A stretch of 64,000 nt of DNA from Ignisphaera sp. (GTDB lineage: Archaea > Thermoproteota > Thermoprotei_A > Sulfolobales > Ignisphaeraceae). The stretch covers positions 1-64,000 of the forward strand of contig JAVYNU010000008.1 in assembly GCA_038735125.1 (NCBI GenBank), read 5' to 3'. Under the pieces are notes generated by a model, which was not told where the DNA came from, did no database searches, and saw nothing but the letters and a program-made list of their open reading frames with translations. Shown in pieces: positions 22,134-49,383 of the stretch (the stretch's first letter is position 1; every line of letters starts with the position of its first letter). The position numbers were made by a program, and so were the translations under genes.

Positions 22134-22173
22134 CTATCATAATAATTATTGATTACCATACCTAGGTGTGTCT

Positions 22174-23085
22174 ATGTCTTTGCAGCAACCAAAGTTGGTG
22201 TTCCTATTTCTGGATACAGATAAGCATGTAAGTCCTTTTGAGCCTCTAATGGTCGTAGATCTATTTCCAGATGCACATATATTACTATATGGTGGTGTAG
22301 AGCCGCAGGATGTTCAGAGAATTGTTCAAGACGCTATGTTTCCCAGGGGTCCAAAAGGTGTTAGATTCACTAAAATGTTTATAGGTGGATATGATGTGGA
22401 GAAGGTTGAGAAAATTGTTGAGGCAGTCAAAAAAACTATGTTCCCACCCTTCGAATTCTCCGTAGTTATAGACCCTAGAGGAGCTAACACAACAGCAGCC
22501 GCAGCCATTGCAAAAATATATCAAATTTGTATTAAACATGGATTTGGAGATTTTAAAAACAAGAATGTTGCAATCCTAGCTGGGACAGGGCCTGTTGGAA
22601 TGGTTGCAGCATCTATTTTTGGTACTGAGGGTGCCAAGGTCTATATAACTTCTCGTAGCTTAGAAAAGGCAGTTGCTGTTGCAAATAGGGTTAATAAGGA
22701 GCTTGGATTTGAGGCGGTATATGGTGTTAAAGCTCATAGCCAAGATGAGATGTGCAAAGCTATTGAGAATGCAGATCTTGTTTTAGCTGGTGGAGCTGCT
22801 GGTGTCAGGCTTTTGAATCTTGATACCCTTAAAGGTTGTGGAAAGAGGGTGAGGGTTGTTGCGGATGTTAATGCTGTTCCTCCAACAGGTATTGAGGGAT
22901 TGGAGCCAAATGATGAGGATAAAGAGGTTGTTCCAGGTGTTTATGGTGTTGGCGCTTTGAGAATAGGAGCTTTAAAGAATAAGATATTGGCTGAGTTGTT
23001 TAAACGAGCCGTAGAAGCGCCGAAGGGCTTTTTTGAACATAAAGCTGCTTGGGAAATAGCAAAGCAGTTGATTGTAAGTAAGTAA
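22174..23085 (+). CDS. mtdB: NAD(P)-dependent methylene-tetrahydromethanopterin dehydrogenase
   Basis: This enzyme interconverts methylene-H4MPT and methenyl-H4MPT using a pyridine nucleotide. It is the MtdA/MtdB type known from methylotrophic bacteria rather than the F420-dependent Mtd of methanogens. About 303 residues show an N-terminal substrate domain, an IDPRGANTTAAAA segment, a Rossmann loop AGTGPVGMVAA (about 130-140) followed by ITSRS, and a C-terminal DVNAVPPTGIEG segment. I prefer the ATG at 22174, which follows AGGTG, over the GTG six bases earlier. It is the first gene of the C1 operon. Using NAD(P) links the pathway to Nfn at 31-33 kb. Confidence 0.9.
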   Translation: MSLQQPKLVFLFLDTDKHVSPFEPLMVVDLFPDAHILLYGGVEPQDVQRIVQDAMFPRGPKGVRFTKMFIGGYDVEKVEKIVEAVKKTMFPPFEFSVVIDPRGANTTAAAAIAKIYQICIKHGFGDFKNKNVAILAGTGPVGMVAASIFGTEGAKVYITSRSLEKAVAVANRVNKELGFEAVYGVKAHSQDEMCKAIENADLVLAGGAAGVRLLNLDTLKGCGKRVRVVADVNAVPPTGIEGLEPNDEDKEVVPGVYGVGALRIGALKNKILAELFKRAVEAPKGFFEHKAAWEIAKQLIVSK

Positions 23086-23102
23086 AGTAGTTGGTGTGGT
23101 AT

Positions 23103-24032
23103 TTGCTTCAGATAGGTTCTGTAGTTATTGAAGATACATTTGCAGAAGCATTTCCAATGTATGCAACAAGGGTTATTATCACAGCAAAAAGTTTTAGATG
23201 GGCTTTAACAGCTGCCAGAGTTGCAACAGGTTTTGGCACATCTGTCATAGCATCTCCTGGAGAGTGTGGTATAGAAACAATTCTATCACCTAGAATAACA
23301 CCCGATTCAAGACCAGGTGTGACAATTCAAATATATCATACAGATCCTGCAAATCTTAAGTTGGTAACAATTACTAGAATAGGGCAATGCATTTTAACAG
23401 CCCCAACAACGGCTGTATTCAACGGTTTGCCAAAAGCTAAAAGAAAAATGGGTATTGGAAAAGCTCTTGCAAAATTTGGCGACGGTTTTGAAAAAGAGGA
23501 TACACTTTATGGTAGAAAAGTTTGGAGAATACCTGTTATGGAGGGGGAATTCATAGTTGAGGATAGCATAGGTATTGTAAAAGGGGTTGCTGGTGGGAAT
23601 ATACTTATCCTTGCTAAAGATAGTGATGCAGGTTTAGAGGCTGCTGTAAAAGCTGTTAAAGCCATTAGAAAATATGTCAGAGGTGTTATAACGCCATTCC
23701 CAGGAGGGATAGTTAGATCAGGATCGAAGGTAGGGTCGTTAAAATACCCAAAGCTTAGAGCAACAACAAATCATCTGTACTGCCCAACACTTAAAAACAT
23801 TGTTAAAGACTCTAAGGTTCCACCAGAGGTTAACAGCGTATATGAGATCGTGATAAATGGTTTAAAGAGAGAATTTGTTCTTAAGGCAATGGGCATAGCG
23901 ATAAAGGCTGCCTCAACAGTTCCAGGAGTGGTGAAAATAGATGCTGGTAACTATGGAGGTAAGTTAGGGCCTTATCCATTATATCTGAGAGAGGCTTTGG
24001 AGATGGTCAAAAATGTTGATGTAAGGGTTTAG
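23103..24032 (+). CDS. ftr: Formylmethanofuran:tetrahydromethanopterin formyltransferase
   Basis: This soluble enzyme moves the formyl group between methanofuran and H4MPT. The protein of about 309 residues starts with the family's VIEDTFAEAFPM and carries ASPGECGIE, DSRPGVTIQIYH, the CILTAPTTAVFNGLP segment, AGGNILILAK, and GVITPFPGGIVRSGSKVG. I place the start at TTG 23103, which follows GGTGTGG at a good distance and matches the usual family N-terminus; the longer frame begins at 23091. It lies between mtdB and fwdDB, and its stop is directly followed by the fwdDB ATG. Confidence 0.93.
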   Translation: MLQIGSVVIEDTFAEAFPMYATRVIITAKSFRWALTAARVATGFGTSVIASPGECGIETILSPRITPDSRPGVTIQIYHTDPANLKLVTITRIGQCILTAPTTAVFNGLPKAKRKMGIGKALAKFGDGFEKEDTLYGRKVWRIPVMEGEFIVEDSIGIVKGVAGGNILILAKDSDAGLEAAVKAVKAIRKYVRGVITPFPGGIVRSGSKVGSLKYPKLRATTNHLYCPTLKNIVKDSKVPPEVNSVYEIVINGLKREFVLKAMGIAIKAASTVPGVVKIDAGNYGGKLGPYPLYLREALEMVKNVDVRV

Positions 24033-25766
24033 ATGGCAATGCCAAAAGTATATACCTTAGTTACAGGTAGAACCATAGGTCAAGGAGTTTGGATGGAGAG
24101 TGAAGGTAAATGGTCAGAAAAGTATAGAGATGCTGTAGCATATGCCGAGATGAATCCAGATGATATTAAGGAGCTTGGGGCGGTAGATACAATCAAGATA
24201 ACATCTAGCTATGGATCAATAGTGCTATCTGTAAAACCCAGTGATAAAGTGAGGAGAGGAGCAGTATTCATACCGATGGGTCCTTGGGCAAACTTTATAG
24301 TAGATTCAGATACAGATGGAACTGGCATACCGTATTTCAAAAGTACAAAAGTTGTTGTGGAACCTTCCCAAGAGCCAAAAACGACCTTAGCTGATATCCT
24401 AAAAAATCTTAATGCCAAAGTTCTAGAGGTTCCAATGACAGATTTAGAGATTAGATTAGGTGAGAAGAAAGTTTTCAACAATGTTACATGCCCATTCTGT
24501 GGAGATCTTTGTGACTATCTATCTATAGAGGTTAGTGGAACAAAAATTATTAGGAATGTTGGTGGATGCTCAATATCTATTGCAAAGTTTCTTAACTACT
24601 ACAAACACAGAATTTTAAAGCCATATATAAGGAATGACAATAGATTCGTTGAAGTAGATTTGGAGAAAGCCATTGAGAAAGCAACTGAAATTCTTGTAAA
24701 CTCAAAGTATCCTCTAATCTACGGTCTTTCAAATACATGTGTAGAGGCTATAGATATTGCTGTAGAAATTGCAGAGGTTGTCCACGGAGCCATAGACAAC
24801 ACTTCAGTTGTTTGTCACGGCCCAACAATTCTAGCTGCTCAGGAAACAGGTACTGTCACATCAACTTTTGCACCAATACTTCATCTAGCAGATGTAATAG
24901 TTTTTTGGGGCTGTAATCCTAGAGAGGCTCATCAAAACCATATCACAAGGCTTGTAATGTCTAAGGGGAGGTTTATTGAGGGTAGGAAGCAGAGAAAGAT
25001 TATAGTAATAGATGTTAGGAAGACTATGACAGCAGAACTAGCAGATATGTTCATACAAGTTGAGCCTGGAAAAGACCTGGAGCTTCTAAGGGCTTTGAGA
25101 ATGGCTATAAAAGATCTTGAGATAGAGGCTCCTGTTGTTGCGGGGGTTCCAAAGGAAAAGGTGCTAGAGTTGGCAGATATTTTAAGGACAGCTAGATACG
25201 GTGTTGTATTCTTTGGCATGGGTCTCACGCAAAATGATGCAAGGTATAAGAATATTGAGGAGGCAATAAAGCTTGTTCAAGATCTTAATGAATGGACAAA
25301 ATTTGTTCTACTCCCAATGAGAGGGCACTTCAATGTTACTGGAGCTAATCAGGTTCTTCTATGGAATACAGGTTACCCTTATTCAGTTGACTTTACAAGA
25401 GGGTTCCCAAGAATGTACATAGGCGTTACATCTGCAGTTGATTTGCTCTCCAATGGGGATGTAGACGCTGCTTTGATAATAGCTTCAGACCCCGCTGCGC
25501 ACTTTCCAAGGAAAGCCATTGAACACCTTTCCAAAATATCTGTAGTGGTTATTGATGCTAAATGGTCTCTCACTACATCATTTGCAGATGTTGTTATACC
25601 AGCTGGTTTAACTGGTATAGAGTGTGAGGGTACAGCATATAGAATGGATGGCATGACAATATACATGAAGAAGGTTTTAGATCCGCCACCAGGAGTTTTA
25701 TGCGATAGGGAAGTTCTTGAGATGCTTCTTGAAAAGATTAAGGAGTTGAAGGGGCTGAGGACATGA
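24033..25766 (+). CDS. fwdB: Formylmethanofuran dehydrogenase, fused subunits D and B
   Basis: This 577-residue protein joins two subunits that are separate in methanogens. Residues 1-115 match FwdD, the molybdopterin-dinucleotide-binding beta domain (TGRTIGQGV, KYRDAVAYAEM, FIPMGPWAN). Residues from about 145 match FwdB, a molybdenum/tungsten oxidoreductase. Cluster cysteines are visible in CPFCGDLC (C153, C156, C160) with C179, and the metal-ligand cysteine is in VCHGPT (C261), about 118 residues into the FwdB part, as in methanogen FwdB. It would reduce CO2 to formate, or the reverse, within the Fwd complex. All key residues are intact. I do not know this fusion from methanogens. Confidence 0.93.
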   Translation: MAMPKVYTLVTGRTIGQGVWMESEGKWSEKYRDAVAYAEMNPDDIKELGAVDTIKITSSYGSIVLSVKPSDKVRRGAVFIPMGPWANFIVDSDTDGTGIPYFKSTKVVVEPSQEPKTTLADILKNLNAKVLEVPMTDLEIRLGEKKVFNNVTCPFCGDLCDYLSIEVSGTKIIRNVGGCSISIAKFLNYYKHRILKPYIRNDNRFVEVDLEKAIEKATEILVNSKYPLIYGLSNTCVEAIDIAVEIAEVVHGAIDNTSVVCHGPTILAAQETGTVTSTFAPILHLADVIVFWGCNPREAHQNHITRLVMSKGRFIEGRKQRKIIVIDVRKTMTAELADMFIQVEPGKDLELLRALRMAIKDLEIEAPVVAGVPKEKVLELADILRTARYGVVFFGMGLTQNDARYKNIEEAIKLVQDLNEWTKFVLLPMRGHFNVTGANQVLLWNTGYPYSVDFTRGFPRMYIGVTSAVDLLSNGDVDAALIIASDPAAHFPRKAIEHLSKISVVVIDAKWSLTTSFADVVIPAGLTGIECEGTAYRMDGMTIYMKKVLDPPPGVLCDREVLEMLLEKIKELKGLRT

Positions 25767-27484
25767 GTATGTTACTTATAAAAAATGGCATTGTATTTGA
25801 CCCCTTGAATAACATTAAAGGAGAAGTAATGGATATAGCAGTGAAGAACGGCAAAATTGTTGATCCAAAGGAAATCGATGAAAAAAGTGCCATTGTTATA
25901 GACGCTAAGAACAAGGTTGTCATGGCTGGTGGAATAGATATCCACTCACATATTGCTGGGCCAAAAGTCAATGTTGGTAGGATGATAAGACCAGAAGACC
26001 ACTATTTAACTAATAACCCGCATAGACTACCTTATAGAAGAGCTGAAACAGGAATCACAGTACCAAATGTATATAGAATTGGCTATGGTTATGCAAAACT
26101 TGGCTACACATTTGTTGTAGAGCCCGCAACACCACCTATAAAAACTAGACACACACATCACGAGCTCAACTCTATTCCAATCATAGACAAAGCTGCATAT
26201 GTTCTTGTAGACTCTAACTGGATTGCATTAGACTTAATTAAAGAGGAGAAAAAAGATCTTCTAACAGCCTATTTAGCATGGCTTCTCTACGCAACAAAAA
26301 CATATGCATTAAAGCTTGTTGACCCTGGCTCTGATGTTTCATGGGTTCTCAGAGGAAGAGGTATAGACATAGATGAGGAAATACCGCACTACGGCATGAC
26401 ACCAAAAGATATAATAGCATCTATAGCTGAAGCTGCACAGATATTGAACATTCCCCACAAAGTCCACATACACTGTAACAGACTTGGGTATCCAGGAAAC
26501 TATATAACAACGCTAAAAACCGTGAACATCTCTTCAACAATCAGAAAAATTTCTCCTGGACCATCAATGCACATAACACATGTACAATTCACAGGATACA
26601 AAGGAGATTCCTGGGCAACACTAGAAAGCGGTGGCGAGGATATAGCAAAAGAGCTGAACAAAAATCCTGATATAACATTGGATTTGGGGCAGGTAATATT
26701 GGGAAGAACAGCAACAACAATGACAGCTGATGCACCATTTGAATTTGTATTGTACCATTTAACTAGATGGAAATGGGCTAGCAGCGATACTGAAATAGAT
26801 GCTGCATCTGGCATAGTCCCATATAGGTATAGAAAGAAGAGTTATGTCAACACCATTCAGTGGGTTATAGGCTTGGAGATAGCTCTTCTAGCAAAAGACT
26901 TGTGGAGAGTTTTCATAACAACAGATCATCCAAATGCTGGAACATTCTTTGACTATCCAAAGATATTTGCATGGCTTGTAAGTAAAAAAGCTAGGGAGGA
27001 TATGATGAAGGAAGTCAACCAAAGGGCATTGAAGCGTTCTGCCCTACCCTCTATAGATAGAGAATATACCTTATACGACATCGCAATTCTTACTAGAGCA
27101 TCTCCTGCAAAACTTCTTGGACTAGAGAAGATAAAGGGTCATCTTGGTGTGGGTGCAGATGCAGATATAGCTATATATGATATCAATCCATTTGAGGTTG
27201 ATATATCTAAAAACTATGAGGTTGTCACAAAAGCTTTTAGCAGAGCTTGGATAGTTATTAAGGGAGGTGAAATTGTTGTTAAAGATGGGGAAGTTGTTAA
27301 TACAGTTTATGGAAGAACGTTCTATGTTAAGCCAGAGATTCCAGAGGATGTAGAGAAGGACCTGATGAACTATCTGCAGCCAAGATTCAAGGAACTTTAC
27401 ACAGTTACATTAGAGAATTTTGTTATTAGGGAAAAGGAGATTAGAAACCCATTTGAGGTAAAGATTAAAACTTATTTGAGGTGA
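25763..27484 (+). CDS. fwdA: Formylmethanofuran dehydrogenase subunit A (formate-methanofuran condensing amidohydrolase)
   Basis: FwdA is the binuclear-zinc amidohydrolase that joins formate to methanofuran, or hydrolyses formylmethanofuran. The 573-residue protein has all expected ligands: HxH in DIHSHIAG (H61, H63), the likely carbamylated lysine in ALKLVDPG (K184), histidines in VHIHC (H237) and ITHVQF (H273), and the catalytic aspartate in ITTDHPNAG (D388). Its ATG overlaps the fwdDB stop by four bases, indicating coupled synthesis of complex partners. The length is normal for FwdA. Confidence 0.95.
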   Translation: MSMLLIKNGIVFDPLNNIKGEVMDIAVKNGKIVDPKEIDEKSAIVIDAKNKVVMAGGIDIHSHIAGPKVNVGRMIRPEDHYLTNNPHRLPYRRAETGITVPNVYRIGYGYAKLGYTFVVEPATPPIKTRHTHHELNSIPIIDKAAYVLVDSNWIALDLIKEEKKDLLTAYLAWLLYATKTYALKLVDPGSDVSWVLRGRGIDIDEEIPHYGMTPKDIIASIAEAAQILNIPHKVHIHCNRLGYPGNYITTLKTVNISSTIRKISPGPSMHITHVQFTGYKGDSWATLESGGEDIAKELNKNPDITLDLGQVILGRTATTMTADAPFEFVLYHLTRWKWASSDTEIDAASGIVPYRYRKKSYVNTIQWVIGLEIALLAKDLWRVFITTDHPNAGTFFDYPKIFAWLVSKKAREDMMKEVNQRALKRSALPSIDREYTLYDIAILTRASPAKLLGLEKIKGHLGVGADADIAIYDINPFEVDISKNYEVVTKAFSRAWIVIKGGEIVVKDGEVVNTVYGRTFYVKPEIPEDVEKDLMNYLQPRFKELYTVTLENFVIREKEIRNPFEVKIKTYLR

Positions 27485-27489
27485 TTACA

Positions 27490-28338
27490 ATGAGTTATGT
27501 CCTCAAGCTAAAATACTCACCAAAAGTATTGGTTGACGCCAGAAACATTTCGCCAGATAAATTTGCTGGCAAGACTCTAAATGAGATAAAGAAGCTTAAG
27601 ATACTTGAAGGAGGTTATGAAACGACAATAGAAAGTATATTCGATGTTGATGGGCCGTCTCAAGCACCTCAAGATATTAAATCTATTGAGATAACAATTG
27701 AGGGTGGCTCAAACAAGCTGTGTTTTATAGGCTATAGGATGAGTGGAGGAAAGGTAGTCATAAAAGGTGGCGCAGGACACTTCACAGGATATAAAATGAG
27801 TGGAGGAACAATTGTTGTACATGGAAGTGTTAGAGACTATTTAGGATGCAAAATGAAGGGTGGGGTAATAGAGGTTTTTGGCGATGCTGGTCACAGAATT
27901 GGGAGTAAGCTTCATGGTGAAAAATCTGGAAAAGGTATGAGAGGTGGAACAATCACCATACACGGTAATGCCGGCTCGTATGTTGGGTGGGGTGCTGGTG
28001 GTGGAACAATTGTTATTGACAAAAATGCAAAAAACTTTGTTGGCTCTGATATCGCTGGAGCTGTAGTTGTTGTTAAAGGTTCTGCTGGTATATATCCCGG
28101 ATTTGGTATGTCTAGTGGTAGAGTTGTTATTGGCGGTAGGATAGAGTCTATGGCTCCTAGCTTCTACATAGATTCTATTATACCGTCTCTAAAGGTTAGG
28201 GGGATAGCATTTAACAAGCCGTTTGCTACATTCATAGGAGATGTTATCTCTGGTGGGAGAGGATTATTGCAAATATCATATGAAGACAACAAAGATTTTG
28301 TGGATTTATATAAAAACCTTTTGGAGGAGTCTATATGA
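27490..28338 (+). CDS. fwdC: Formylmethanofuran dehydrogenase subunit C
   Basis: This protein of about 282 residues is the right-handed beta-helix subunit related to the glutamate synthase C-terminal domain. Repeats of the form MSGG-VVIKG-AG-YTGY recur about seven times between residues 75 and 240. It probably scaffolds FwdA and the FwdB/D unit. I use the ATG at 27490, preceded by GAGGTGA that spans the fwdA stop, rather than the GTG at 27481. It overlaps mch by four bases. No FwdE, F or G (ferredoxin-like) genes are adjacent. Confidence 0.93.
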   Translation: MSYVLKLKYSPKVLVDARNISPDKFAGKTLNEIKKLKILEGGYETTIESIFDVDGPSQAPQDIKSIEITIEGGSNKLCFIGYRMSGGKVVIKGGAGHFTGYKMSGGTIVVHGSVRDYLGCKMKGGVIEVFGDAGHRIGSKLHGEKSGKGMRGGTITIHGNAGSYVGWGAGGGTIVIDKNAKNFVGSDIAGAVVVVKGSAGIYPGFGMSSGRVVIGGRIESMAPSFYIDSIIPSLKVRGIAFNKPFATFIGDVISGGRGLLQISYEDNKDFVDLYKNLLEESI

Positions 28339-29306
28339 GCCTTGTTAAGATTCCTTCAAAACCCATGAACAAACTAGCTATGCAGATAGTTTCAGATGCT
28401 ATCTCAAGAGAGAAAGAGCTTAACATAGTTGTTACGAAAGTTGGCGGGGCTACTGTTATTGATGCAGGCGTCAAGACTTTTGGTAGTCTAGAAGCTGGTT
28501 TAGTTGTATCAAAAATTTGCTTAGGTGGATTAGCAGATGTATATACAACGCATTTCCAAATTGCTGACATATTTCTACAGGCAGTTGCAGTCTCTACAGA
28601 CTATCCAATAGAGTCTTGTATGGCATCTCAATTAGCTGGCTGGAGAATACAAGTAAAAGACTTTTTCGCAAATGGGAGCGGACCTGCAAGAGCTCTTGCA
28701 AGAAAGCCTAAGAAGCTGTTTGACTATCTAGGCTATGTAGAGCAATCAGATGAAGCTGTAATAGTTCTTGAAACAGATAGATATCCATTTGAAGAAGTTG
28801 TTGAATACATATCAAATGAAGTTAATGTGTCTCCACAGAACTTGTATATAGTCTTAGTCTCTCCTGCAAGCATAGCTGGAAGCCTGCAGGTTAGCGCTAG
28901 AATAGTTGAAACCGGCATATTTAAACTGCATAGCATTGGCTTCAACATAAAAACCATTAGATATGGCTTTGGAGTTTGCCCGATAGCACCTTTACATCCA
29001 GACCCACTTGTAATGGCTGGTAGAACAAATGATATGCTACTTTATGCGGGCTCAACATTCTATATAGTCGACTTCGATGATGATCAAAAACTCAGAGAAT
29101 TCGTTGAAAAAGCCCCGAGTTCTGCATCTAAAGACTATGGAAAGTCGTTTACAGAGCTTGTAAAGATATATGGCTGGGACTTTCTATACAAAGTAGATCC
29201 GCAGATATTTGCACCTGCTGTTATAGTTGTAAACAATGTTAGAACAGGCTCAACATTTAAGGCAGGGGCTATAAACCTTGAAATAATTAGGAAGGTGTAT
29301 TCGTAG
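28335..29306 (+). CDS. mch: Methenyltetrahydromethanopterin cyclohydrolase
   Basis: This enzyme hydrolyses methenyl-H4MPT to formyl-H4MPT or catalyses the reverse. The 323-residue protein follows the family from end to end: GGATVIDAGV, EAGLVVSKICLGGLADV, ASQLAGWRI, GSGPARALA, VLETDRYPFEEVVEY, SLQVSARIVETGI and YGFGVCPIAP, then GRTND. Its ATG follows GGAGGAG within the end of fwdC. It is the last gene of the plus-strand C1 operon and converges on mfnE. With mtdB and ftr it completes the formyl-to-methylene segment. Confidence 0.94.
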   Translation: MSLVKIPSKPMNKLAMQIVSDAISREKELNIVVTKVGGATVIDAGVKTFGSLEAGLVVSKICLGGLADVYTTHFQIADIFLQAVAVSTDYPIESCMASQLAGWRIQVKDFFANGSGPARALARKPKKLFDYLGYVEQSDEAVIVLETDRYPFEEVVEYISNEVNVSPQNLYIVLVSPASIAGSLQVSARIVETGIFKLHSIGFNIKTIRYGFGVCPIAPLHPDPLVMAGRTNDMLLYAGSTFYIVDFDDDQKLREFVEKAPSSASKDYGKSFTELVKIYGWDFLYKVDPQIFAPAVIVVNNVRTGSTFKAGAINLEIIRKVYS

Positions 29307-29321: not shown

Positions 29322-29975
29322 CTAACACATCACTGTTGTGTATTCCCCCTCAACACCCTTGACAATATCCTTTAAAATCCAAGGCTTTTTCACATTGAAT
29401 ATTGCAACCTTTATGCAAAGGTTTTCAACAAGTTTTGCAACATATTCGTCAACAACATTTTGAGTAATTTTCTCAAAATCTTCAGCTCTAATCCTCTTAA
29501 TCAACCCTCCTCTAGCATCCTTAACACCATCAACCACCTTTCCTAGGCATACAAGCCCACACCCTATTTTAGATGCTATGAAAATTGCTATAGAGTCGCT
29601 TGTAACGCTCCAGCTATGTGGAAGCTCATCAAATTTTCTCAAAATTGTATATGGCATTACAATAGGTATTCTATTATTTGATAGAATGAAGCTAATATCT
29701 TCTATGCTATAAGCCTCTTCAAATAACGGGCTAAAACTCTTTATGTATGTTCCGTAAAGCTCCATAGCCTTTATAGCCATCCAATGGGCTGTATCATTGT
29801 CAAATCCGATCTCTTTTTGAATATCTCTGATAAGGTCTGCAAATATGCTTCCACCTGGCAAAATAACAACTCTAATTCTATCTCTATGAAGATCTTCAAT
29901 TTCTTTAACAAGACTTTTTAAAGAATTTGCATCCTTTATTAAATGACCTGAAATTTTTATAACGATACAGTTCAT
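29322..29975 (-). CDS. mfnE: Amino acid kinase family protein, methanofuran biosynthesis kinase MfnE
   Basis: This 217-residue protein has the amino-acid-kinase fold: KISGHLI at the N-terminus, a VILPGGSIFADL phosphate-binding loop, and a SVTSDSIAIFIASKIG segment. MfnE phosphorylates the aminomethylfuran-methyl phosphate intermediate to the diphosphate used for methanofuran assembly. The assignment rests on the fold, the short length and its four-base overlap with mfnF. Other small amino-acid kinases (uridylate or isopentenyl phosphate kinase) are less likely given this context. Confidence 0.82.
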   Translation of the reverse strand: MNCIVIKISGHLIKDANSLKSLVKEIEDLHRDRIRVVILPGGSIFADLIRDIQKEIGFDNDTAHWMAIKAMELYGTYIKSFSPLFEEAYSIEDISFILSNNRIPIVMPYTILRKFDELPHSWSVTSDSIAIFIASKIGCGLVCLGKVVDGVKDARGGLIKRIRAEDFEKITQNVVDEYVAKLVENLCIKVAIFNVKKPWILKDIVKGVEGEYTTVMC

Positions 29976-31048
29976 TTATTCAAAACCTCTTCGGCCACCA
30001 TAGCAGCTACAGCATATGATGGAAAAACAGATGCTATTCCATATCCAACAACATCGTCTATATCGATAACCTCTCTAAAGCCTGCTCTTCTACACGCCTC
30101 CACAGCTATATGCTTACCAATACCTGCTACAATAGCTTTAAAATCATCTAGCCTAATCTTTTGTGATGCAAGCCAGCTTCTTATCTGCATAAGAGCTTCG
30201 AAGACTTTAAACACTTGCACTTCATAAATGTATCTAGCTATCTCAATAACCTCTTCAACACTAAGCATCTTGGCATCTGCACAAGGAACTCTAGCTATTC
30301 TCGCAACTGCCTCTTCAAAGCTTCTCCCCCTTCCATCAGCTGTTTCTGTGGAATACTCATCACTTTTTATATACCCTAAAACAAGATGTACATCACCTGA
30401 CAATGCAAATCTCTCCGAAGAGACCCTGGCAAAAAATCCTTTATACGGAACTTTATCGACTATAGCACATACATTAGTTCTCAGAACACCTGTGTAAACA
30501 AGCTCTCCATACACAAGCTTTTCGGGATCTGTATAGCCTCTCGTAAATGTTTTCCCATCTACAATTGGTATAATCGTGGTTGTTGTACTCCCAATATCCA
30601 CGAAAACAATGTTTCTATAACCTTTCTCAACAGCTATTCTCTCTAAAAGCCATGCAGATGCGACCCAATTAGAAGCTGCAAACATCATTGGATTCTTTAA
30701 AACATCTTCGAAAACCTTTAAATCCATGTCAAGAGACACAAAATAATTCTCTATAGAATCGCTAAAAACACTTTCAACTAATTCAGCAATACTCATAACA
30801 CCAACATCTTTAGATACAAAAACATCGCTTAACTCAGCAGTCATTGAAGCACCTACATAATACTCCCCCGATCTAACACCAAACCTCATTCTAATATCCT
30901 TTAAAATACTAGCTATAGACCTTGGACCCAAAATCCAAATAGGGTTGTATACCCTTACAACATCTTTAACGGCAAAAGAGCCATTTTCGTATAGAACCTT
31001 AACAGCTTTTATATTAGCCCCGCCAATATCAAGTCCAATGAAGATCAT
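29972..31048 (-). CDS. mfnF: Methanofuran biosynthesis protein MfnF (H4MPT-linked C1 pathway protein)
   Basis: MfnF couples the furan diphosphate to glutamyl-tyramine, making the aminomethylfuran-phenoxy core of methanofuran. The fold is of the hydantoinase/actin-like ATPase type: IGLDIGGANIKAV at the N-terminus, NWVASAWLL, VDIGSTTTTIIPI, RGYTDPEKLVYGELVYTGVLRT and a late VAGIGKH. I place the start at ATG 31048, which has GGGGTGGG ten bases upstream; a longer frame to 31126 lacks this. It overlaps mfnE by four bases and is divergent from nfnA. Confidence 0.87.
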   Translation of the reverse strand: MIFIGLDIGGANIKAVKVLYENGSFAVKDVVRVYNPIWILGPRSIASILKDIRMRFGVRSGEYYVGASMTAELSDVFVSKDVGVMSIAELVESVFSDSIENYFVSLDMDLKVFEDVLKNPMMFAASNWVASAWLLERIAVEKGYRNIVFVDIGSTTTTIIPIVDGKTFTRGYTDPEKLVYGELVYTGVLRTNVCAIVDKVPYKGFFARVSSERFALSGDVHLVLGYIKSDEYSTETADGRGRSFEEAVARIARVPCADAKMLSVEEVIEIARYIYEVQVFKVFEALMQIRSWLASQKIRLDDFKAIVAGIGKHIAVEACRRAGFREVIDIDDVVGYGIASVFPSYAVAAMVAEEVLNK

Positions 31049-31207
31049 TTTTGACAACCCACCCCAAATATTTCTAGCTTTGGAACTTATATCAATATAG
31101 CTATTTAAGAATCGTTTAAACAACATCTTTGCTTTATAATGGTCTCTAATAAAATCTCTTAGAAATTATCAATATAATTGTCTGGTTTTAAAACATTTTA
31201 ACCAAAA

Positions 31208-31220: not shown

Positions 31221-31286
31221 GTTTGTGCTCCTCTTGAATATAGCTAATTGGTATCGTCAAGCTTGTGCATTGTGCAGGTGAAGATG

Positions 31287-32132
31287 ATGAGTTTCGAAAT
31301 AATCGGTAAGAAGAGTCTTGCTGAAGGTATTGTGGAGATGGATGTCCATGCCCCTAGAGTTGCCTGTTCTGCGAGACCTGGCCAATTTGTTATTGTTATG
31401 GCATGCGAAGAGTGTGAGAGAATACCTCTCACACTTGTTGACTGGAGCTGTAGGGATGGATGGATTAGACTCGTTTTCCAGGAGGTTGGTGTGTCAACAT
31501 ATAAACTTGGTATGATGAATGTGGGTGATAGGCTTTATCATGTTGTTGGACCCTTGGGCAACCCTACACATGTTGAGAAATTTGGTGTTGTCGCTGTTGT
31601 TGCTGGTGGTGTTGCTATAGCGGCCGCATATCCGATTGCCAGGGCTTTTAGAGAAGCTGGCAATATTGTCGTGTCTTTTATTGGTGCAAGAACCTCTAGG
31701 CTACTCATATACAGAGACTACATTACAAAGATTAGCGATGAGATGCATATCTCCACTGACGATGGTTCTGAGGGCTTCAAAGGATTTGTTACGCAGCTTC
31801 TTGAAAAAAGGTTTGCAGAGGGCTTCAAGCCAAATCTTGTATGGGTTGTTGGTCCTGCACCAATGATGAGAAGCTGTAGTGTTGTGACAAAACGGTTTGA
31901 GATTAAGACTATTGCCAGCTTGAATCCTATTATGGTTTGTGGCATGGGCATGTGTGGTGCTTGTAGGGTTCGCATTAAAAACGAGATTAGATTCACATGC
32001 GTTGATGGACCCGAATTCGATGCGTGGGATGTGGACTGGGACGAGCTGATCCAAAGGCTTTCTGCCTATCGAGAGGAAGAGTCCTATGCATTGAAGCTGT
32101 TTTTAGAGAGTAGGAAGGTTAAAGGTGGATAA
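31287..32132 (+). CDS. nfnA: NADH-dependent ferredoxin:NADP+ oxidoreductase (Nfn) / sulfide dehydrogenase, small subunit
   Basis: This protein of about 281 residues has an FAD-binding ferredoxin-reductase domain (ARPGQFVIVMA, RIPLTLVDW, the FQEVGVSTYKL segment and VVGPLGNP), an NAD-binding domain and a C-terminal [2Fe-2S] site with CGMGMCGACRV and a fourth cysteine in RFTCVDGPEFD. That is the pattern of NfnA. The complex exchanges electrons between NADPH, NADH and ferredoxin. Start: ATG 31287 with AGGTGA five bases upstream; an in-frame ATG at 31284 is also possible. It is coupled to nfnB with a gap of three bases. Confidence 0.9.
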   Translation: MSFEIIGKKSLAEGIVEMDVHAPRVACSARPGQFVIVMACEECERIPLTLVDWSCRDGWIRLVFQEVGVSTYKLGMMNVGDRLYHVVGPLGNPTHVEKFGVVAVVAGGVAIAAAYPIARAFREAGNIVVSFIGARTSRLLIYRDYITKISDEMHISTDDGSEGFKGFVTQLLEKRFAEGFKPNLVWVVGPAPMMRSCSVVTKRFEIKTIASLNPIMVCGMGMCGACRVRIKNEIRFTCVDGPEFDAWDVDWDELIQRLSAYREEESYALKLFLESRKVKGG

Positions 32133-33512
<1,380 letters not shown>

Positions 33513-41055: not shown

Positions 41056-42285
41056 TTATATGCTTGTATATGATTTTATATAGGTGGTCATCGGCTCATT
41101 TCCGTTTGGGGTGGTTTGTCGGGTTTCATTCTTCATTCCATCCCCGTTGGGGGAAGACCCAAGGCTTCCCCACATCCCCCGTAGGTAGATGTTTATTGCT
41201 CCAACAAAATCCCTGTCTCTTTTGAATCCGCATTTCCTGCAGATTGCCAGTCTATGTATGTAGTTTAACTTTGTGCCGCACCTTGGACATGTTGATGATG
41301 TGTTTCTTGGGTCTATAATGAGTATTGGAACGTTGTACTCAATGGATTTGGCTATAATAGTATGTTGAAGCTTTCTATAGGCAAATAGCGTTAGCCTCCA
41401 CCTAACACCATTGTTTTTGCCATTGATAGACTCTCTCAGATGCTCTAAATCCTCTAGTACAACTGCGTGTCCTCTTCTATATGCTTTAACTACAACCTCC
41501 TTTGCTAGTTTCCAGCAGAAATCGTTGATGATGTTCCTAGCTCTTCTATGGAGAGCTCTAACCCTGTTTAGAATCCTCTCGTTGTATCTCCACCTCTTAG
41601 GATACTTCTTCTGAAGTTCCTCGGCTCTAGCCCTCTTGCTCAATGCCTCGACAAATCTTGTTCTATACCTTCTAGCCTCAGAGCCATCGAATGTTGTAAC
41701 AGCTCTCAGATTCACATCAACTGCTGTGAAGCCTTTTGGAGCATATGGATTGTACCTGACCTCGAAGACTATACTGATATAGATTTTCTTGTTCTCATAC
41801 TTTACATGAACTTCCTTCCACCTCAAGTTTTTGAATTTCTCGATGTACTCCCTCCTATGCTTTAATCTAAGAGTATATTGCTTGTCTCTCAAGACAACTT
41901 TGACAACTCCTTTGTCTAACTCAACTCTTGCATCTTGGTAGTCTAGTCTAGCAGATAGTTTTCTGACACTCGGCTTGTCGCCATTGCTATTCCTAGCCGA
42001 TTTCACTAGAGCTAGCGCATAGCTGTAGATATTTCTAGCTACGTGTGCTCTAAAGCCATATTCTCTAAGCATTGGGTAGAACATTTGATGCAACTGGCTT
42101 TTCTTTGGAAGCCCATCCAAATCCCATAGAGCGTCTACAACCTTTTGCAGAGCATACCTATATACCGCCAAGTCCCACAGCAAATCACTAACACTACATT
42201 CGACCACCTCAGCCCCTGTCTTGAGAGCCTTGCGATATGCACCCTCAGACATCCACCTACAGCCTAGGCGGATAAACGCCTTCAT
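41056..42285 (-). CDS. tnpB: IS200/IS605-family TnpB (RuvC-like RNA-guided nuclease)
   Basis: This 409-residue protein is a compact Cas12-like nuclease ancestor. The RuvC triad is intact: D190 in AVDVNLR, E278 in VVLEDLEHL and D359 in RDRDFVGAINI. A zinc ribbon lies between (CPRCG at 333-337 and CRKCG at 349-353). No tnpA transposase accompanies it. The last 35 codons overlap a foldback (GGGGAAG with CTTCCCC), as expected for the guide RNA scaffold. The stop codon lies at the junction with the interrupted M24-like gene. Confidence 0.92.
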   Translation of the reverse strand: MKAFIRLGCRWMSEGAYRKALKTGAEVVECSVSDLLWDLAVYRYALQKVVDALWDLDGLPKKSQLHQMFYPMLREYGFRAHVARNIYSYALALVKSARNSNGDKPSVRKLSARLDYQDARVELDKGVVKVVLRDKQYTLRLKHRREYIEKFKNLRWKEVHVKYENKKIYISIVFEVRYNPYAPKGFTAVDVNLRAVTTFDGSEARRYRTRFVEALSKRARAEELQKKYPKRWRYNERILNRVRALHRRARNIINDFCWKLAKEVVVKAYRRGHAVVLEDLEHLRESINGKNNGVRWRLTLFAYRKLQHTIIAKSIEYNVPILIIDPRNTSSTCPRCGTKLNYIHRLAICRKCGFKRDRDFVGAINIYLRGMWGSLGSSPNGDGMKNETRQTTPNGNEPMTTYIKSYTSI

Positions 42286-43156: not shown

Positions 43157-44683
43157 TTGATTGCATTGACTCCATATCTGCTCATATTAGGCTCGTTCAC
43201 ACTGATATTCTTTAAGGTTTTTAGGGTAAAGCAGATATATTCTGCCATCTATACACTGTTTTTCCTCGCCTTAGCAACTATTTTCTCCGCTATAATCTAT
43301 GTTGATGCAACTTCAAGTAGACTTCTATACTATTTTCTTGGTGGCTTCCCACCACCAATAGGCATTACCTATGCTGTCGATGAATTCTCATCTTTCATAG
43401 CATTTCTAACAACTTTGTTGGCACTAGCTCTGTTTCCACTTACACTGATTTTCTCTGAATCTGTTGATGAGTATACCATGGCTAGCTACCTTGGTTTGTT
43501 AGCAGGTTTTACTGGGATTCTATACACAGGCGATCTATTTAACATGTTTGTTATGCTAGAGGTTACGCTTATATCAACCTATAGCCTTATGGTCTTGACA
43601 GGGTCGAGAAATAACTACAAAGCAGTTTTCAACTACATGATTGTTGCAAGTGTTTCAAGTCTTTTCTTCTTTATGGGAGTGGTTCTAATATATTTTGCCA
43701 CCAGCACTGTTAACATTGGTCATCTTGGGCTCATCTTAAGCGGTCTAAGCACCTCATATAGAGGCTACACAGCTAATGTGGCTACAGCCATGACTATTTT
43801 TGTTTCAATGCTTATGTGGAGTCTTGTAGTTGATGAGGCTCTGACCCCCCTGCATTTCTGGCTCCCACCTGCATACTCTTCTATAAACCCAGCTGTAGCC
43901 TCTCTTCTAGCCGGGGTCTCTGAGGGAATAGCATACTACGCCCTTCTAAGAATTGTCTATACAGTGCTAAATGGGCTGGGCCCAGCTATAGAGTACATGC
44001 TTCGCATCTTAGGCATGGCAACAATTGTTGTTGGTGGGCTTGGTGCTCTATACTCCAACAGATTTAGCTATATAGCCTCCTACACCGTGGTTCTAGACAC
44101 AGGCTACATAGCACTTGCACTATCTCTTGGGCCAAGCGCTATCCAAATTGCTCTCACATACATTGTTGCACATATGATTGTAAAGCCCATTCTATTCCTG
44201 TCAAGTGGATGGATAAAGAAGATGTATGCTGACGACTCTCTCGAGAACATCCAAGGCGCTCTGAGAAGCTCTCCAATCATGCAGATGGGGCTTTTGATAG
44301 CCGCTCTCTCGGTTATCGGCGTGCCCCCAACGATCATGTTTTTAGCTAAGCTTGGCGTCTACGAATCTCTCTTCACTTTGCTGTCAAAGGATTTCACAAT
44401 ACCTATAGCGCTAGCCGTGGCATTTATGGGTTCTGCCCTAGCTTTGGCTGCTTTCGCAAAGCTGATTGCATCAACTGTTCTTGCACCACCGCAGAATGAG
44501 GTAAAGCTATCTCCGCCATTTACACTAAGAGCCTATATAGCTGTTTTCGCTGTGCTAGCCATAGTCCTCGGTCTGTTCTACAGCGGGATACTCGAACCTG
44601 TTACTAGATATACTTCTGATGCTCTTGTACATGGTAGAGACTATTACCTACAGATAATTAAAGGTTTTCTCTATGGTGGATAG
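43157..44683 (+). CDS. Proton/sodium-pumping antiporter subunit (MrpD/NuoN/MbxH-like)
   Basis: This 508-residue protein has about 14 membrane helices. Charged residues of ion-pumping subunits are present: the helix-5 glutamate in FVMLEVTL, the histidine/proline segment LTPLHFWLPPAYSSI and the lysine in AHMIVKPILFLSSG. It should couple electron transfer to ion movement. The start is odd. The only standard codon is TTG 43157, but AGGGGGT at 43126-43132 would better suit an ATA codon at 43139, six codons upstream in frame. It begins the operon and overlaps the J-K gene by 11 bases. Confidence 0.9.
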   Translation: MIALTPYLLILGSFTLIFFKVFRVKQIYSAIYTLFFLALATIFSAIIYVDATSSRLLYYFLGGFPPPIGITYAVDEFSSFIAFLTTLLALALFPLTLIFSESVDEYTMASYLGLLAGFTGILYTGDLFNMFVMLEVTLISTYSLMVLTGSRNNYKAVFNYMIVASVSSLFFFMGVVLIYFATSTVNIGHLGLILSGLSTSYRGYTANVATAMTIFVSMLMWSLVVDEALTPLHFWLPPAYSSINPAVASLLAGVSEGIAYYALLRIVYTVLNGLGPAIEYMLRILGMATIVVGGLGALYSNRFSYIASYTVVLDTGYIALALSLGPSAIQIALTYIVAHMIVKPILFLSSGWIKKMYADDSLENIQGALRSSPIMQMGLLIAALSVIGVPPTIMFLAKLGVYESLFTLLSKDFTIPIALAVAFMGSALALAAFAKLIASTVLAPPQNEVKLSPPFTLRAYIAVFAVLAIVLGLFYSGILEPVTRYTSDALVHGRDYYLQIIKGFLYGG

Positions 44684-45728
44684 CAAAATGGGCTTGGGCG
44701 ACATAATTATAAAGGTTATTGAGGCTTTGGCAAGGTGGGCTAGAAGTAGAAGCATCTGGATGCTTCACTACTGCTCAGCTTGTGGCGCTGTGGAGTTCCC
44801 AATGCTTGTGATGTCTCCGCTTGACTGGGAGAGATATGGTTATATGCCAGCGCCGACACCAAGGCAATCAGATATATTCATCGGCATGGGATATCTGACT
44901 AAGAAAACAGTTAAACTTGTCTTGAATATGTATAGACAGATACCCGAACCGAGATATGTTGCCGCTGGGTGTAACTGTACTGCAACAGGCGGGCTTTACT
45001 GGGATAGCTATGCAACCTATAAGAGGTTGGATGAATTTGTTGAGGTTGAGGGGTGGGTACCAGGATGCATGCCAATGCCAGACGACTACCTCAGCCTAAT
45101 AGAGTATCTGAGAAACAGAATTGGCGAATCAGACCAGGCAAAGGTAATTTCTAGGATAAAGCCTGAAGCATTCAATAAGATAGCAACTTACGAAGAGCTT
45201 GAGAAGAGGTTTCTAAAGGAATACATGGAAAAGCTGGCTGCCTCAAGCCAGAAGCCCATAGACTATCAATTCAAGTCAACGTTTCCAGAATGTTATGAGA
45301 GAATAGAGAAGAGTAAAATATGTAAGACAAGCATTGAAAGAGATAGGGTAAGGGACGCAGTTAAATACTATCTTGAAAAAGGATACAAAATATTGGTGAA
45401 TATCAACGCTGTTGACTACCCAGAGAAAAACGTTATAGAAATTTACTACATATTTGAGAATCCCTATTCAGGCGAGCAAATATGGATAAAGACTTTTGTT
45501 ACAAGGACAAACCCCGAGATGGACACTATACACGATCTAACCCCATTGGCATTCTACATAGAGAAGGAAGTATACGAAATGATGGGGATAGTATTCAAAG
45601 GTCATCCAGACCTCAGGAAATGGATTCTAGATGGTAATTGGGAGGGCCCACCACCACTTAGAAAAGACGTTAACACTGCTGACTTTGTTGTGAAGGTGAT
45701 GTACAATGGCTATAGGTATGGAAGGTAG
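44673..45728 (+). CDS. Fused NuoB-like and NuoC-like subunit (MbxJ-MbxK)
   Basis: Residues 1-165 are a NuoB/MbhJ-type subunit with cluster cysteines CSAC (C34, C37), GCNC (C100/C102) and VPGCMP (C132) for the proximal [4Fe-4S] centre. Residues from about 220 are a NuoC/MbhK-type subunit (VNINAVDYPEKNVIEIYYIF and EVYEMMGIVFKGHPDLRKWIL). In MBH/MBX operons these are separate genes; here they form one chain of 351 residues. The downstream overlap with the large-subunit gene is 23 bases. Confidence 0.9.
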   Translation: MVDSKMGLGDIIIKVIEALARWARSRSIWMLHYCSACGAVEFPMLVMSPLDWERYGYMPAPTPRQSDIFIGMGYLTKKTVKLVLNMYRQIPEPRYVAAGCNCTATGGLYWDSYATYKRLDEFVEVEGWVPGCMPMPDDYLSLIEYLRNRIGESDQAKVISRIKPEAFNKIATYEELEKRFLKEYMEKLAASSQKPIDYQFKSTFPECYERIEKSKICKTSIERDRVRDAVKYYLEKGYKILVNINAVDYPEKNVIEIYYIFENPYSGEQIWIKTFVTRTNPEMDTIHDLTPLAFYIEKEVYEMMGIVFKGHPDLRKWILDGNWEGPPPLRKDVNTADFVVKVMYNGYRYGR

Positions 45729-46821
45729 GGAATATACCGTAGTATACTTCGGTCCACAACACCCAGGAGCACCAGGTAATATAGCCTACAAACTGTGGTT
45801 AGATGGTGAGAGGGTTGTGAGAGCCGAGCTAATACCAGGTTTTCTGCATAGAGGATTCGAGAAAATGTTGGAGAACAGAACGTGGGAGATGAACATCGTT
45901 TTAAGCTACAGATTCTGTGTTGAAGACCCAGACAACCTAGAGATTGCATATGCGCTTGCCGTAGAAGAGATATTCAAGGTTAGTATCCCAGAGAACGCAA
46001 AATGGATTAGAATGATACAGTCTGAAATGAGTAGAATAGCCTCCCACATGTTCTGGGTTCACTTCATGGCTGGGAGCACAGGTTTGAGAACCCCCGCCTT
46101 CTGGGCTTCGGCAGCTAGAGAAGAGATTCTGAAGTGGTTTGCCAGGATATCGGGACATAGAATATATCACAACATCAGTGTTCCTGGAGGGATTAGATAT
46201 GAACTCCCAGAAAACTTTGTAGACGATACTCTAAAGGTTTTGGAGTTTGTGGAAGAGAGGACAAGAGATGTTGAAGCCGCTCTGCTTAAAAATAGGGTAT
46301 TCAGGGCTAGAACAGTTGGATTGGGGAGGCTCACACCAGATGAGGCCATACAACTGGGTGTCACAGGCCCTGTTCTAAGGGCAACTGGACTAAAATATGA
46401 CACTAGACTCAATGTTCCATACCTCAACTATGATAAGGTGAAATTCGATGTGCCAACAGGTTCAAGTGGAGACTCCTATGACAGAGCTGCTGTAAGGTTC
46501 AAGGAGATATACCAGTCTATTTCGATAATAAGACAGGCATTGGAAAACATAAGACTTGGTGAACCGCTGAGAGTTAAGGTACCTATGGCCGCTCCGCCAG
46601 GCGAGGGAGTAGCACGTGTTGAGAGCGCTCGTGGAGAATATATGATTCATATTATAAGCCGTGGGGGTAGAAACCCATATAGGGTCAGACTGAAGAGCGT
46701 CTCAATGCCCTTGCTCACAACAGTTGTTGACCATATTATTAGGAAAGAGGAGATCACCATAGCTGATTTCCCCGTTTTACTAGCCTCTCTAGATCCATGT
46801 GCACCAGATTTGGATAGGTGA
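45706..46821 (+). CDS. NuoD/hydrogenase-large-subunit-like protein (MbxL-like), NiFe site incomplete
   Basis: This 371-residue protein is the large peripheral subunit, with YFGPQHPGAPGN, GFLHRGFEKMLE, SRIASHMFWV, GGIRYELP and LTPDEAIQLGVTGP. NiFe hydrogenases need two CxxC pairs. Here only one cysteine of each remains: C71 in YRFCVEDP and C365 in DPCAPDLDR. This matches the pattern known for MBX/MBS (sulfane sulfur reductase), not hydrogenase. The partner chains suggest oxidation of ferredoxin. The ATG overlaps the J-K gene, giving tight coupling. Confidence 0.9.
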   Translation: MAIGMEGREYTVVYFGPQHPGAPGNIAYKLWLDGERVVRAELIPGFLHRGFEKMLENRTWEMNIVLSYRFCVEDPDNLEIAYALAVEEIFKVSIPENAKWIRMIQSEMSRIASHMFWVHFMAGSTGLRTPAFWASAAREEILKWFARISGHRIYHNISVPGGIRYELPENFVDDTLKVLEFVEERTRDVEAALLKNRVFRARTVGLGRLTPDEAIQLGVTGPVLRATGLKYDTRLNVPYLNYDKVKFDVPTGSSGDSYDRAAVRFKEIYQSISIIRQALENIRLGEPLRVKVPMAAPPGEGVARVESARGEYMIHIISRGGRNPYRVRLKSVSMPLLTTVVDHIIRKEEITIADFPVLLASLDPCAPDLDR

Positions 46822-47288
46822 TTAGAGTGGTTTGGGCAACATTCGCTAAATCGATTAAGTATTTGGTGGCAAGGCCTTATACTAGGCAGGTACCAAGAAT
46901 AGACAAGCCGTTTAAAACAAGTGTTTTGAGAGGTGCCCACATACTCGATATGAACAAGTGTACAGGTTGTGGTATGTGCCAGATTATGTGCCCAGCTGCA
47001 TGTATAGACTTTGTTGTTGTAGAGGGCGACTATCCCCAGAATCCGAAGAAGAGATTTCCGAGAATAGATCAGAGCAAATGCACATTCTGTGGTCTATGCG
47101 TTGAGTACTGCCCCTTCAACGCATTGTTCATGACAATGGCAACAGGCTTTGAACTGTTCACCACAGACAAATCAAAAACATTTAAAGAGCCTACACAGCT
47201 CAAAGGCGATGTAAAGACCATTACAGTTTCGCGAGAACTCTTCTTGGGTGCCTACGAAAAGCAGAAGAAGGGACAAGCCGCAAGGTGA
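46818..47288 (+). CDS. 2x[4Fe-4S] ferredoxin-type subunit (MbxN/NuoI-like)
   Basis: This 156-residue iron-sulfur protein has two four-cysteine sets, CTGCGMCQIMCPAAC (about 50-64) and CTFCGLCVEYCP (about 92-103). It should pass electrons from ferredoxin to the proximal cluster in the J domain. The GTG start overlaps the large-subunit stop by four bases. The C-terminal 40 residues are polar and not conserved. Confidence 0.92.
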   Translation: MIRVVWATFAKSIKYLVARPYTRQVPRIDKPFKTSVLRGAHILDMNKCTGCGMCQIMCPAACIDFVVVEGDYPQNPKKRFPRIDQSKCTFCGLCVEYCPFNALFMTMATGFELFTTDKSKTFKEPTQLKGDVKTITVSRELFLGAYEKQKKGQAAR

Positions 47289-47295
47289 TTGTGTT

Positions 47296-47580
47296 ATGGT
47301 CACCTTCGAATCTATTGAGCCTCTTGTAACTGCTGCAATGTCTATGTTCACAGTAGCAATGATTACATACTCTATAAGAGCATTTACAGCAAAAAACCTT
47401 GGAGATGTTACACTAGCCATTGATGCACTCACATCGACTCTAGTGGTCATACTTATACTCATAGCACTGTACTACAGATCTTCGATGCTTCTAATCGGCG
47501 CTATACCACTTGCCTCATGGATCTTCCTCACAGATCTTGTTGTTTCAAGGTATTTAGAGAAGAGGGGTGGTAGAAGATGA
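47296..47580 (+). CDS. MrpF-like antiporter subunit
   Basis: This 94-residue membrane protein has three helices (about 10-27, 37-60 and 65-84). The middle contains NLGDVTLAIDALTS, the region that is normally DRVVALD in MrpF. The start is ATG 47296 with GGTGA eight bases before it; a longer frame from 47248 would overlap the ferredoxin gene in another frame and is unlikely. It belongs to the Mrp module that exchanges Na+ and H+. Confidence 0.85.
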   Translation: MVTFESIEPLVTAAMSMFTVAMITYSIRAFTAKNLGDVTLAIDALTSTLVVILILIALYYRSSMLLIGAIPLASWIFLTDLVVSRYLEKRGGRR

Positions 47581-47951
47581 TCGATTTGATTCTTGTGTAT
47601 CTAGGTGCTGCAATACTGGTTATTGGAGGTATACTCAATGTTATTGCTGCCATAGGGTTCTTCAAATTTAAGGAGTTTTATGCAAGACTCCATGCAGCTA
47701 CTATAGCGACTATAGGCGGTGGCTTCTATCCACTAATTGGAATAGCTATAATGGTTCTAGGACTTGACACAGATGTCTACATGAAGGCTGTTTTCGCAGG
47801 AGTCTCATTCATTACTGCATTATTGGTTGCCTTGGGTGTTCCAGCCGGTTCTCACATACTTGCAAGAGCTGTTTATAGAAGTGGGGAGGCAAAGCCGATG
47901 GTGTCTGTGGATAGGTTGAAGGAGGATTTGGAGAGGGGTGATATGGAGTGA
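47577..47951 (+). CDS. MrpG-like antiporter subunit
   Basis: This 124-residue protein has three membrane helices and the family's FKFKEFYARLHAATIATIGG segment, followed by a cytoplasmic tail of about 30 residues. It overlaps the MrpF-like gene by four bases and the next gene by four bases. Confidence 0.9.
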   Translation: MIDLILVYLGAAILVIGGILNVIAAIGFFKFKEFYARLHAATIATIGGGFYPLIGIAIMVLGLDTDVYMKAVFAGVSFITALLVALGVPAGSHILARAVYRSGEAKPMVSVDRLKEDLERGDME

Positions 47952-48196
47952 TACCCCTCATATTAGCCGCTATAGCCTCTACCCTAGCATTTGTGGCAAC
48001 CGTTGTTGTGGTGCGCACAAAGGATGTTGCCAAAGCTGTTGTAATAGGCGGGATAGAGTCTGCCTTCTATGCAATAGTTTTGTCTGTTTTCCTAGCACCA
48101 GATCTCCTAATAGCTTACATAGCTATTGGTCTTGGCATGAACACTGTACTGCTTCTTTACCTCCTTTCAAAGGGTGAGAGATATGAAGAGATATAG
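47948..48196 (+). CDS. MbhD/DUF4040-like membrane subunit
   Basis: This 82-residue protein has three hydrophobic helices and a VRTKDVAKAVVIGGIESAFYA segment resembling the Mbh/Mbx D subunits and the N-terminal piece of MrpB-related chains. It overlaps MrpG by four bases and the MrpB-like gene by 23, as is typical for the operon. Its role is structural within the ion-translocating module. Confidence 0.8.
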   Translation: MIPLILAAIASTLAFVATVVVVRTKDVAKAVVIGGIESAFYAIVLSVFLAPDLLIAYIAIGLGMNTVLLLYLLSKGERYEEI

Positions 48197-48989: not shown

Positions 48990-49383
48990 GGAGGCTCTGT
49001 GGTACTATATAGGAGTGATAGTCTCGCTAACCATAGCTGTTGCAGCCTACGGTATTGCAAGCAGACCTCACATTGTGAAAAAGCTGACTCTATTTACGAT
49101 AATAGGCGATGCTGTATACATTCTACTTGTGTACCTAGGCTACACAATAGGTGCTACCAACCCTCCTGTCTACCCAAATGGAAGCCTGGCAAACCCTGAA
49201 CTTCCATCGGGTTCAGCATTAAAGCAATTCGCTAAGACTGTTGTCGACCCCGTTCCACAGGTTTTAATAGTTACAGCGATTGTGATTGGCTTGGCAGTGT
49301 TCATACTCATGGTAATAATATCGATTAGAATGGTAGAGGAGAAGGGCACTCTAATGCTGAATAAAATAGATGAGGGTGAGTGA
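48967..49383 (+). CDS. MrpC/NuoK-like antiporter subunit
   Basis: This protein of about 138 residues has three helices of NuoK type (LWYYIGVIVSLTIAVAAYG, LFTIIGDAVYILLVYLG and DPVPQVLIVTAIVIGLAVFIL), with the conserved ALTAIVIG-like third helix. The start is uncertain among TTG 48967, GTG 48973 and GTG 48982, all inside the end of the MrpB-like gene. It overlaps the MrpE gene by four bases. Confidence 0.85.
   Translation: MRVETVLEEALWYYIGVIVSLTIAVAAYGIASRPHIVKKLTLFTIIGDAVYILLVYLGYTIGATNPPVYPNGSLANPELPSGSALKQFAKTVVDPVPQVLIVTAIVIGLAVFILMVIISIRMVEEKGTLMLNKIDEGE

Follow-up and report, generated by a model that had tools for sequence, protein, structure and literature searches.

In the window, the whole stretch of 64,000 nucleotides from Ignisphaera sp. 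that was analysed, positions 24033-25766 of the forward strand form one uninterrupted ORF of 577 amino acids with an ATG start and a TGA stop. Searches with protein family models revealed a pterin-binding domain at residues 8-105 (Molydop_binding, PF01568; 61.8 bits, cut-off 26.8), followed by the Molybdopterin domain (PF00384) at residues 193-552 and by the FwdB equivalog TIGR03129 (one_C_dehyd_B) at residues 150-569 (507.2 bits, cut-off 327.8). The FwdD-type part (residues 1-112; 24033..24368), which also aligns to the solved FwdD chains 5t5i_D and 8rja_D, is joined by a linker (residues 113-147; 24369..24473) to the FwdB part (residues 148-577 and the stop codon; 24474..25766), where a complete FwdB spans residues 148-574. 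With the narrower NCBIfam models both FwdD and FwdA scored below the respective cut-offs, the FwdD model (NF042908) matching residues 7-125 with 97.4 bits (E 6.3e-28; cut-off 175). This single frame, with PF01568 placed before TIGR03129, agrees with an initial annotation of the same DNA that proposed a FwdD-type domain (about residues 1-115) joined to FwdB.

The fused gene, here called fwdDB, is located between an upstream pair consisting of an mtdB-like gene for methylene-tetrahydromethanopterin dehydrogenase (22168..23085; PF09176 Mpt_N, 76.2 bits, cut-off 27) and ftr for formylmethanofuran:H4MPT formyltransferase (23091..24032; TIGR03119, 401.9 bits, cut-off 292.6) and a downstream group consisting of fwdA for the amidohydrolase subunit (25763..27484; TIGR03121, 735.6 bits, cut-off 392.75), fwdC for the beta-helical subunit (27481..28338; TIGR03122, 202.9 bits, cut-off 130.65) and mch for methenyl-H4MPT cyclohydrolase (28335..29306; TIGR03120, 376.8 bits, cut-off 228.8). 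All are on the forward strand, with 4-base overlaps between the gene ends from fwdDB through mch, and both partner subunits of an Fwd, FwdA and FwdC, are found above cut-off in the same operon. In FwdA the residues HSH 61-63, K184, HxH 235-237 and D388, which we take to have metal roles, align with 5t5i_A. On the reverse strand follow an mfnE-like kinase gene (29322..29975; NF040622, 123.1 bits, below the cut-off of 300) and an mfnF-like gene (29972..31126; TIGR03123, 287.4 bits, cut-off 244.1; NF040623 MfnF, 209.4 bits, below the cut-off of 520), both for methanofuran biosynthesis. The mtdB-ftr-fwd-mch operon recurs in relatives; the slot for methylene-H4MPT dehydrogenase is occupied by the MtdB-like type (window:22168-23085) in some members of Ignisphaera and by an F420-dependent Mtd (L139:11668-12534) in others. 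A free-standing formaldehyde-activating enzyme (Fae) of 173 aa is encoded elsewhere in the window genome (G000:C2:60747-61223, L133:8730-9251; 246.5 bits, cut-off 118), and Fae was found in five of the six genus genomes searched, the window genome included (all except G008). According to the parts of Chistoserdova 2016 (PMC5020050) available to us some Ignisphaera genomes contain H4MPT/methanofuran genes and some do not, and in the literature searches made on Ignisphaera together with formylmethanofuran there was no match.

To address the redox capacity of the chain, its ligands and predicted fold were compared with the solved relatives that it matched, 5t5i_B (E 9.9e-134), 8rja_B, 5t5i_D and 8rja_D. 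The cluster cysteines C153, C156, C160 and C179 and the metal-ligand cysteine C261 (in VCHGPT) are situated exactly where the initial annotation placed them and are, together with H262 and R430, invariant among 28 aligned fused homologues, so that the FwdB part carries both the [4Fe-4S] cysteines and the Cys/Sec metal ligand of an Fwd. His119 and Arg288 of FwdB are regarded as residues with a functional role. The phmmer alignments place C261 opposite Cys118 in 5t5i_B and opposite Cys116 in 8rja_B, the latter being the tungsten ligand according to the portion of PMC11493965 at hand, in which no mention of FwdB His119 or Arg288 was found. The AlphaFold2 model of the fused chain has a pLDDT of 92.2 and a pTM of 0.91, and structure comparison (VIA-align), which covers mainly residues 143-577 and hence the FwdB part rather than the placement of D, superposed this part on 5t5i_B with Z 44.1 and an rmsd of 1.1 over 428 aligned residues.

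Compared with the Fwd of Methanothermobacter wolfeii (5t5i) and Candidatus Ethanoperedens thermophilum (8rja), the Ignisphaera protein thus has the same cluster and metal ligands, the same B fold (rmsd 1.1), a homologous D and the same FwdA and FwdC partners, but differs in that B and D, separate chains in both solved complexes, form one chain, and in that their electron modules (FwdF/FwdG or FwdG/FwdI) were not seen in the Ignisphaera operon. The bacterial FhcABCD complex (6s6y) shares another part of the set, since FwdA matches 6s6y_A and the Ftr (FhcD) family is encoded in the same operon. The resemblance of the mtdB-ftr-fwdA-fwdC-mch set to the bacterial formaldehyde-oxidation pathway and the lack of an adjoining gene for an electron-transfer subunit would fit a complex that only hydrolyses formyl-methanofuran to formate via FwdA, with FwdDB as a scaffold. 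The B subunit itself speaks against such a role: the alignment of the 6s6y chains begins at model residue 196 and leaves out the cluster domain, which bears out the earlier statement that bacterial FhcB has lost the redox site, and FhcB is listed without Mo/W-bisPGD in what we could consult of PMC10100899, whereas FwdDB retains both the cluster domain and the metal ligand. Furthermore, the nearest solved relatives are dehydrogenases with 39-48% identity, as against 23-25% for FhcB, and we regard the purely hydrolytic role as improbable. Because of the invariant ligands, the position of C261 at that of the tungsten ligand, the Fwd-like fold and the contrast with FhcB, a redox-competent FwdB is well supported at the level of sequence and prediction. 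The initial annotation went further and called the locus a true dehydrogenase; the residues and the gene context make this likely.

Given its place in an mtdB-ftr-fwdDB-fwdA-fwdC-mch operon in an archaeon of the Ignisphaera type, the fused protein is best read as a redox-active catalytic subunit of Fwd. We give a probability of roughly 0.85 to the gene encoding the redox-catalytic subunit of an archaeal W/Mo formylmethanofuran dehydrogenase, with the adjacent fwdD and fwdB merged into a single frame. In such an enzyme the D domain would pack on the bis-pterin cofactor as the separate FwdD does, FwdA would interconvert formyl-methanofuran with formate and methanofuran, the formate would travel via an internal cavity, which FwdC stabilises, and FwdDB would interconvert formate and CO2. 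As MtdB, Mch and Ftr are encoded alongside and a free-standing Fae is present in the genome, its likely job in this hyperthermophile, taken not to be a methanogen, would be to oxidise C1 units bound to H4MPT (at the formaldehyde level) to CO2, or to run the opposite way. This would put a redox-competent Fwd into an organism that has an MtdB-type pathway and is presumably no methanogen, and the compact, fused hyperthermophile enzyme could conveniently supply the CO2-reducing FwdBD module from one gene.

When searching 10 other genomes of the genus, both domains were read stop-free in one frame in eight (G001, G003, G004 and G006-G010), and no stop-free two-domain frame was found in the remaining two (G002 and G005). 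An artefact of sequencing or assembly was rejected on account of the same fusion in other assemblies of the genus, and the frame being open through both domains in eight of them also argues against chance. Across the 35 linker codons the first, second and third positions differ 5/8/17 times from L005 and 14/6/20 times from L006, that is mostly third-position substitutions, the pattern of coding DNA. The solved FwdD chains align to residue 124-125 and 5t5i_B from residue 148, leaving about 23 residues between the homologous cores, while the separate 5t5i chains have about 11 residues of free ends (FwdD 123-130 and FwdB 1-3); with our own profiles the core-to-core distance is 31-40 residues over 38 fused sequences. 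Two proteins could still be made, either by internal initiation, for instance at the ATG of codon 135, which is found in five of nine close sequences 18 codons ahead of the first cluster cysteine, or by proteolysis of the linker, and one relative (L030) has become split again. No internal start codon common to all nine compared sequences was found, codon 135 included, the linker is predicted to be ordered (pLDDT block means 92-95) and the frame is open across 36 fused sequences of one clade, all of which makes two separate products very unlikely. The fusion is real and very likely functional.

The domain order was compared with that of single-chain formate dehydrogenases (FdhH, FdhF), which according to the sections of PMC3458885 and PMC7331816 accessible to us consist of the same domain set, i.e. 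a cluster domain, two Rossmann-like domains and a beta-barrel pterin domain. In these enzymes the pterin-binding domain is C-terminal, as it is in the formate dehydrogenase-like paralogue L002 of the window genome (B-like residues 28-497, then D-like residues 590-679), whereas in FwdDB it is N-terminal (residues 8-105). A C-terminal molydopterin-binding domain is therefore not what FwdDB has, and the reversed order pointed out in the initial annotation holds. The mimicry of formate dehydrogenases suggested there was rejected, as split relatives show a simple colinear D-B gene order, and the fusion is best explained by the joining of adjacent fwdD and fwdB genes.

When 398 genomes drawn from the phylum were searched with the fused protein (E ≤ 1e-30), 109 gave a match. 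A stop-free match across both parts was present in 25 genomes among the matches listed (G282, whose listed stop is the terminal one, is counted here) and four more (G295, G299, G308 and G366) showed two stop-free pieces in one frame, giving the fusion in at least 29 of the 398 genomes and at least 14 families. Among the named archaeal loci, taken as the best 80 of 581 stretches encoding a relative, 21 are fused and 59 have a separate fwdD directly upstream of fwdB; the fused ones among these 80 include loci from Ignisphaera, another Desulfurococcaceae MAG, Thermofilaceae, Culexarchaeia, a Methanomethylicia MAG, Nezhaarchaeota, Geothermarchaeota, Hecatellales, Undinarchaeales and Methanoculleus sp. 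Afa-1. In the portions seen of Padalko, Nair and Sousa 2024 (PMC11237513) subunit B-D fusions are reported from 16 Methanomicrobiales and 14 TACK assemblies (cluster 525), joining the same two subunits without any difference that we could find, the domain order not being stated in those portions, and in the excerpt seen of PMC7331816 the joining of FwdB with FwdD is discussed as a stage on the way to formate dehydrogenases. Two further papers that bring up FwdB and FwdD do not deal with a fusion protein of this kind, and the literature on Culexarchaeia and formylmethanofuran added nothing. The fusion of Methanoculleus sp. Afa-1 (L127) has D before B, as in Ignisphaera. Being widespread in related archaea and in print (PMC11237513, as far as consulted), the D-before-B fusion is not new, contrary to what the initial annotation assumed, and a novel architecture was rejected on the same grounds. 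With the pathway in Ignisphaera also published, the novelty of the locus is small.

Many split pairs stand close to a fusion. In L040, L042, L044 and L045 the two genes are in the same frame, with no more than a stop codon and a few codons separating D from B, showing how easily a fusion can arise, and the arrangement D-stop-B in the same frame was found in 46 of the 59 split named loci, a share biased by the relatedness ranking and thus not a statistic. A maximum-likelihood tree of the B domain (quick search, SH-aLRT only, unrooted) was made from 103 sequences, 38 fused and 65 split, leaving out 12 duplicate loci (L010, L011, L024, L027, L028, L031, L032, L036, L037, L039, L044 and L046), repeat loci of the window genome (L001-L003), L012 (which ends at a contig edge with no D part), ORFs with a B score below 480 bits and the second copy of G003, and with the two-piece f31 genomes represented only by the similar L108. 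The tree requires four state changes, of which at least three are forced by starred branches. The 36 fused sequences and the re-split L030 form one side of a single branch (SH-aLRT 99.3), and separate fusions outside this Thermoproteota-group clade are seen in Undinarchaeales (L075) and Methanoculleus (L127). The simplest reading, though no proof since the root was not inferred and some sequences are long (L108, L013, L062 and L075_99), is a single old fusion, a subsequent fission and two additional fusions, and the fusion in Ignisphaera is best explained as the inherited architecture of this large Thermoproteota-group clade. The Undinarchaeales locus L075 (3-1647 and 7986-9719) carries two fwd gene sets, a fused one and a split one in which the frames of D and B differ.

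No FwdF/FwdG gene adjoins fwdDB in the operon, and a screen for Fe-S motifs in the DNA around fused loci gave few candidates. Downstream in the window, genes for an NfnA/SudB-like FAD/NAD-binding subunit (31248..32132, forward strand; NF004862, 364 bits, cut-off 220) and an NfnB/SudA-like subunit (32136..33512, forward strand; PF14691, PF07992) could by their inferred role offer a possible ferredoxin:NAD(P) link. In two relatives, G003 (L136:13183-18808) and G001 (L141:1-8320), a group 4 [NiFe]-hydrogenase, a GltD-like FAD protein and a HydN-like Fe-S protein are encoded directly upstream of the mtdB-ftr-fwd operon. These hydrogenases contain RICGIC and DPCFSC motifs, which we take as signatures of such enzymes. 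A related hydrogenase/FAD/HydN-like module is situated away from the operon in the window genome (L149:2963-11913, G000:C4). The position of the module beside the operon in relatives suggests where the electrons may go, and our best guess for the acceptor is ferredoxin, from which electrons could pass on to NAD(P) or to a group 4 [NiFe]-hydrogenase. Further downstream the window contains a Mrp-linked complex I-like membrane complex (43157-51220), the D-like subunit of which is without paired CxxC nickel motifs, and a gene for a probable transposon protein of the TnpB type, which has a Cas12f1-like TNB domain (41056-42285).

FwdA, Ftr and Mch are all present in eight of the 11 genomes of the genus. 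The one-contig complete genome of Ignisphaera aggregans (G009) encodes a fused FwdDB, with the cluster and metal cysteines retained, together with FwdC (L134:8050-10576), and a search of that genome gave no match to FwdA (E ≤ 1e-50) or to Ftr or Mch (E ≤ 1e-10). This case and a weak match to the FDH-alpha profile might suggest that the chain in the window is a formate dehydrogenase outside methanofuran chemistry; with fwdA, fwdC, ftr and mch in the same operon and a TIGR03129 score far over its cut-off we consider this hardly probable, and the redox-catalytic Fwd subunit remains our reading of the window gene. G003 has, besides its full operon, a second FwdDB that is 51% identical to that of I. 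aggregans and is accompanied by FwdC with no adjoining FwdA. We tentatively propose, as a possibility of modest likelihood, that Ignisphaera FwdDB is a detachable CO2/formate module, so that species with the full pathway would oxidise methanofuran-bound C1 units, possibly to H2 via the group 4 [NiFe]-hydrogenase and HydN-like Fe-S protein encoded next to the operon in G001 and G003, and the diverged FwdDB of I. aggregans, with FwdC alone, would be an Fwd-derived enzyme acting on its own as formate dehydrogenase or CO2 reductase. A corresponding loss of FwdA at the DB-FwdC loci of Lokiarchaeota was rejected, FwdA being encoded elsewhere in all five Lokiarchaeota genomes searched. The FwdA-less FwdDB-FwdC pair is the part worth follow-up: it belongs to a cultured type strain, in which it would be directly testable whether FwdBD can serve in vivo simply as a formate dehydrogenase. 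A MobA-like gene is located convergently beside the I. aggregans pair (L134).
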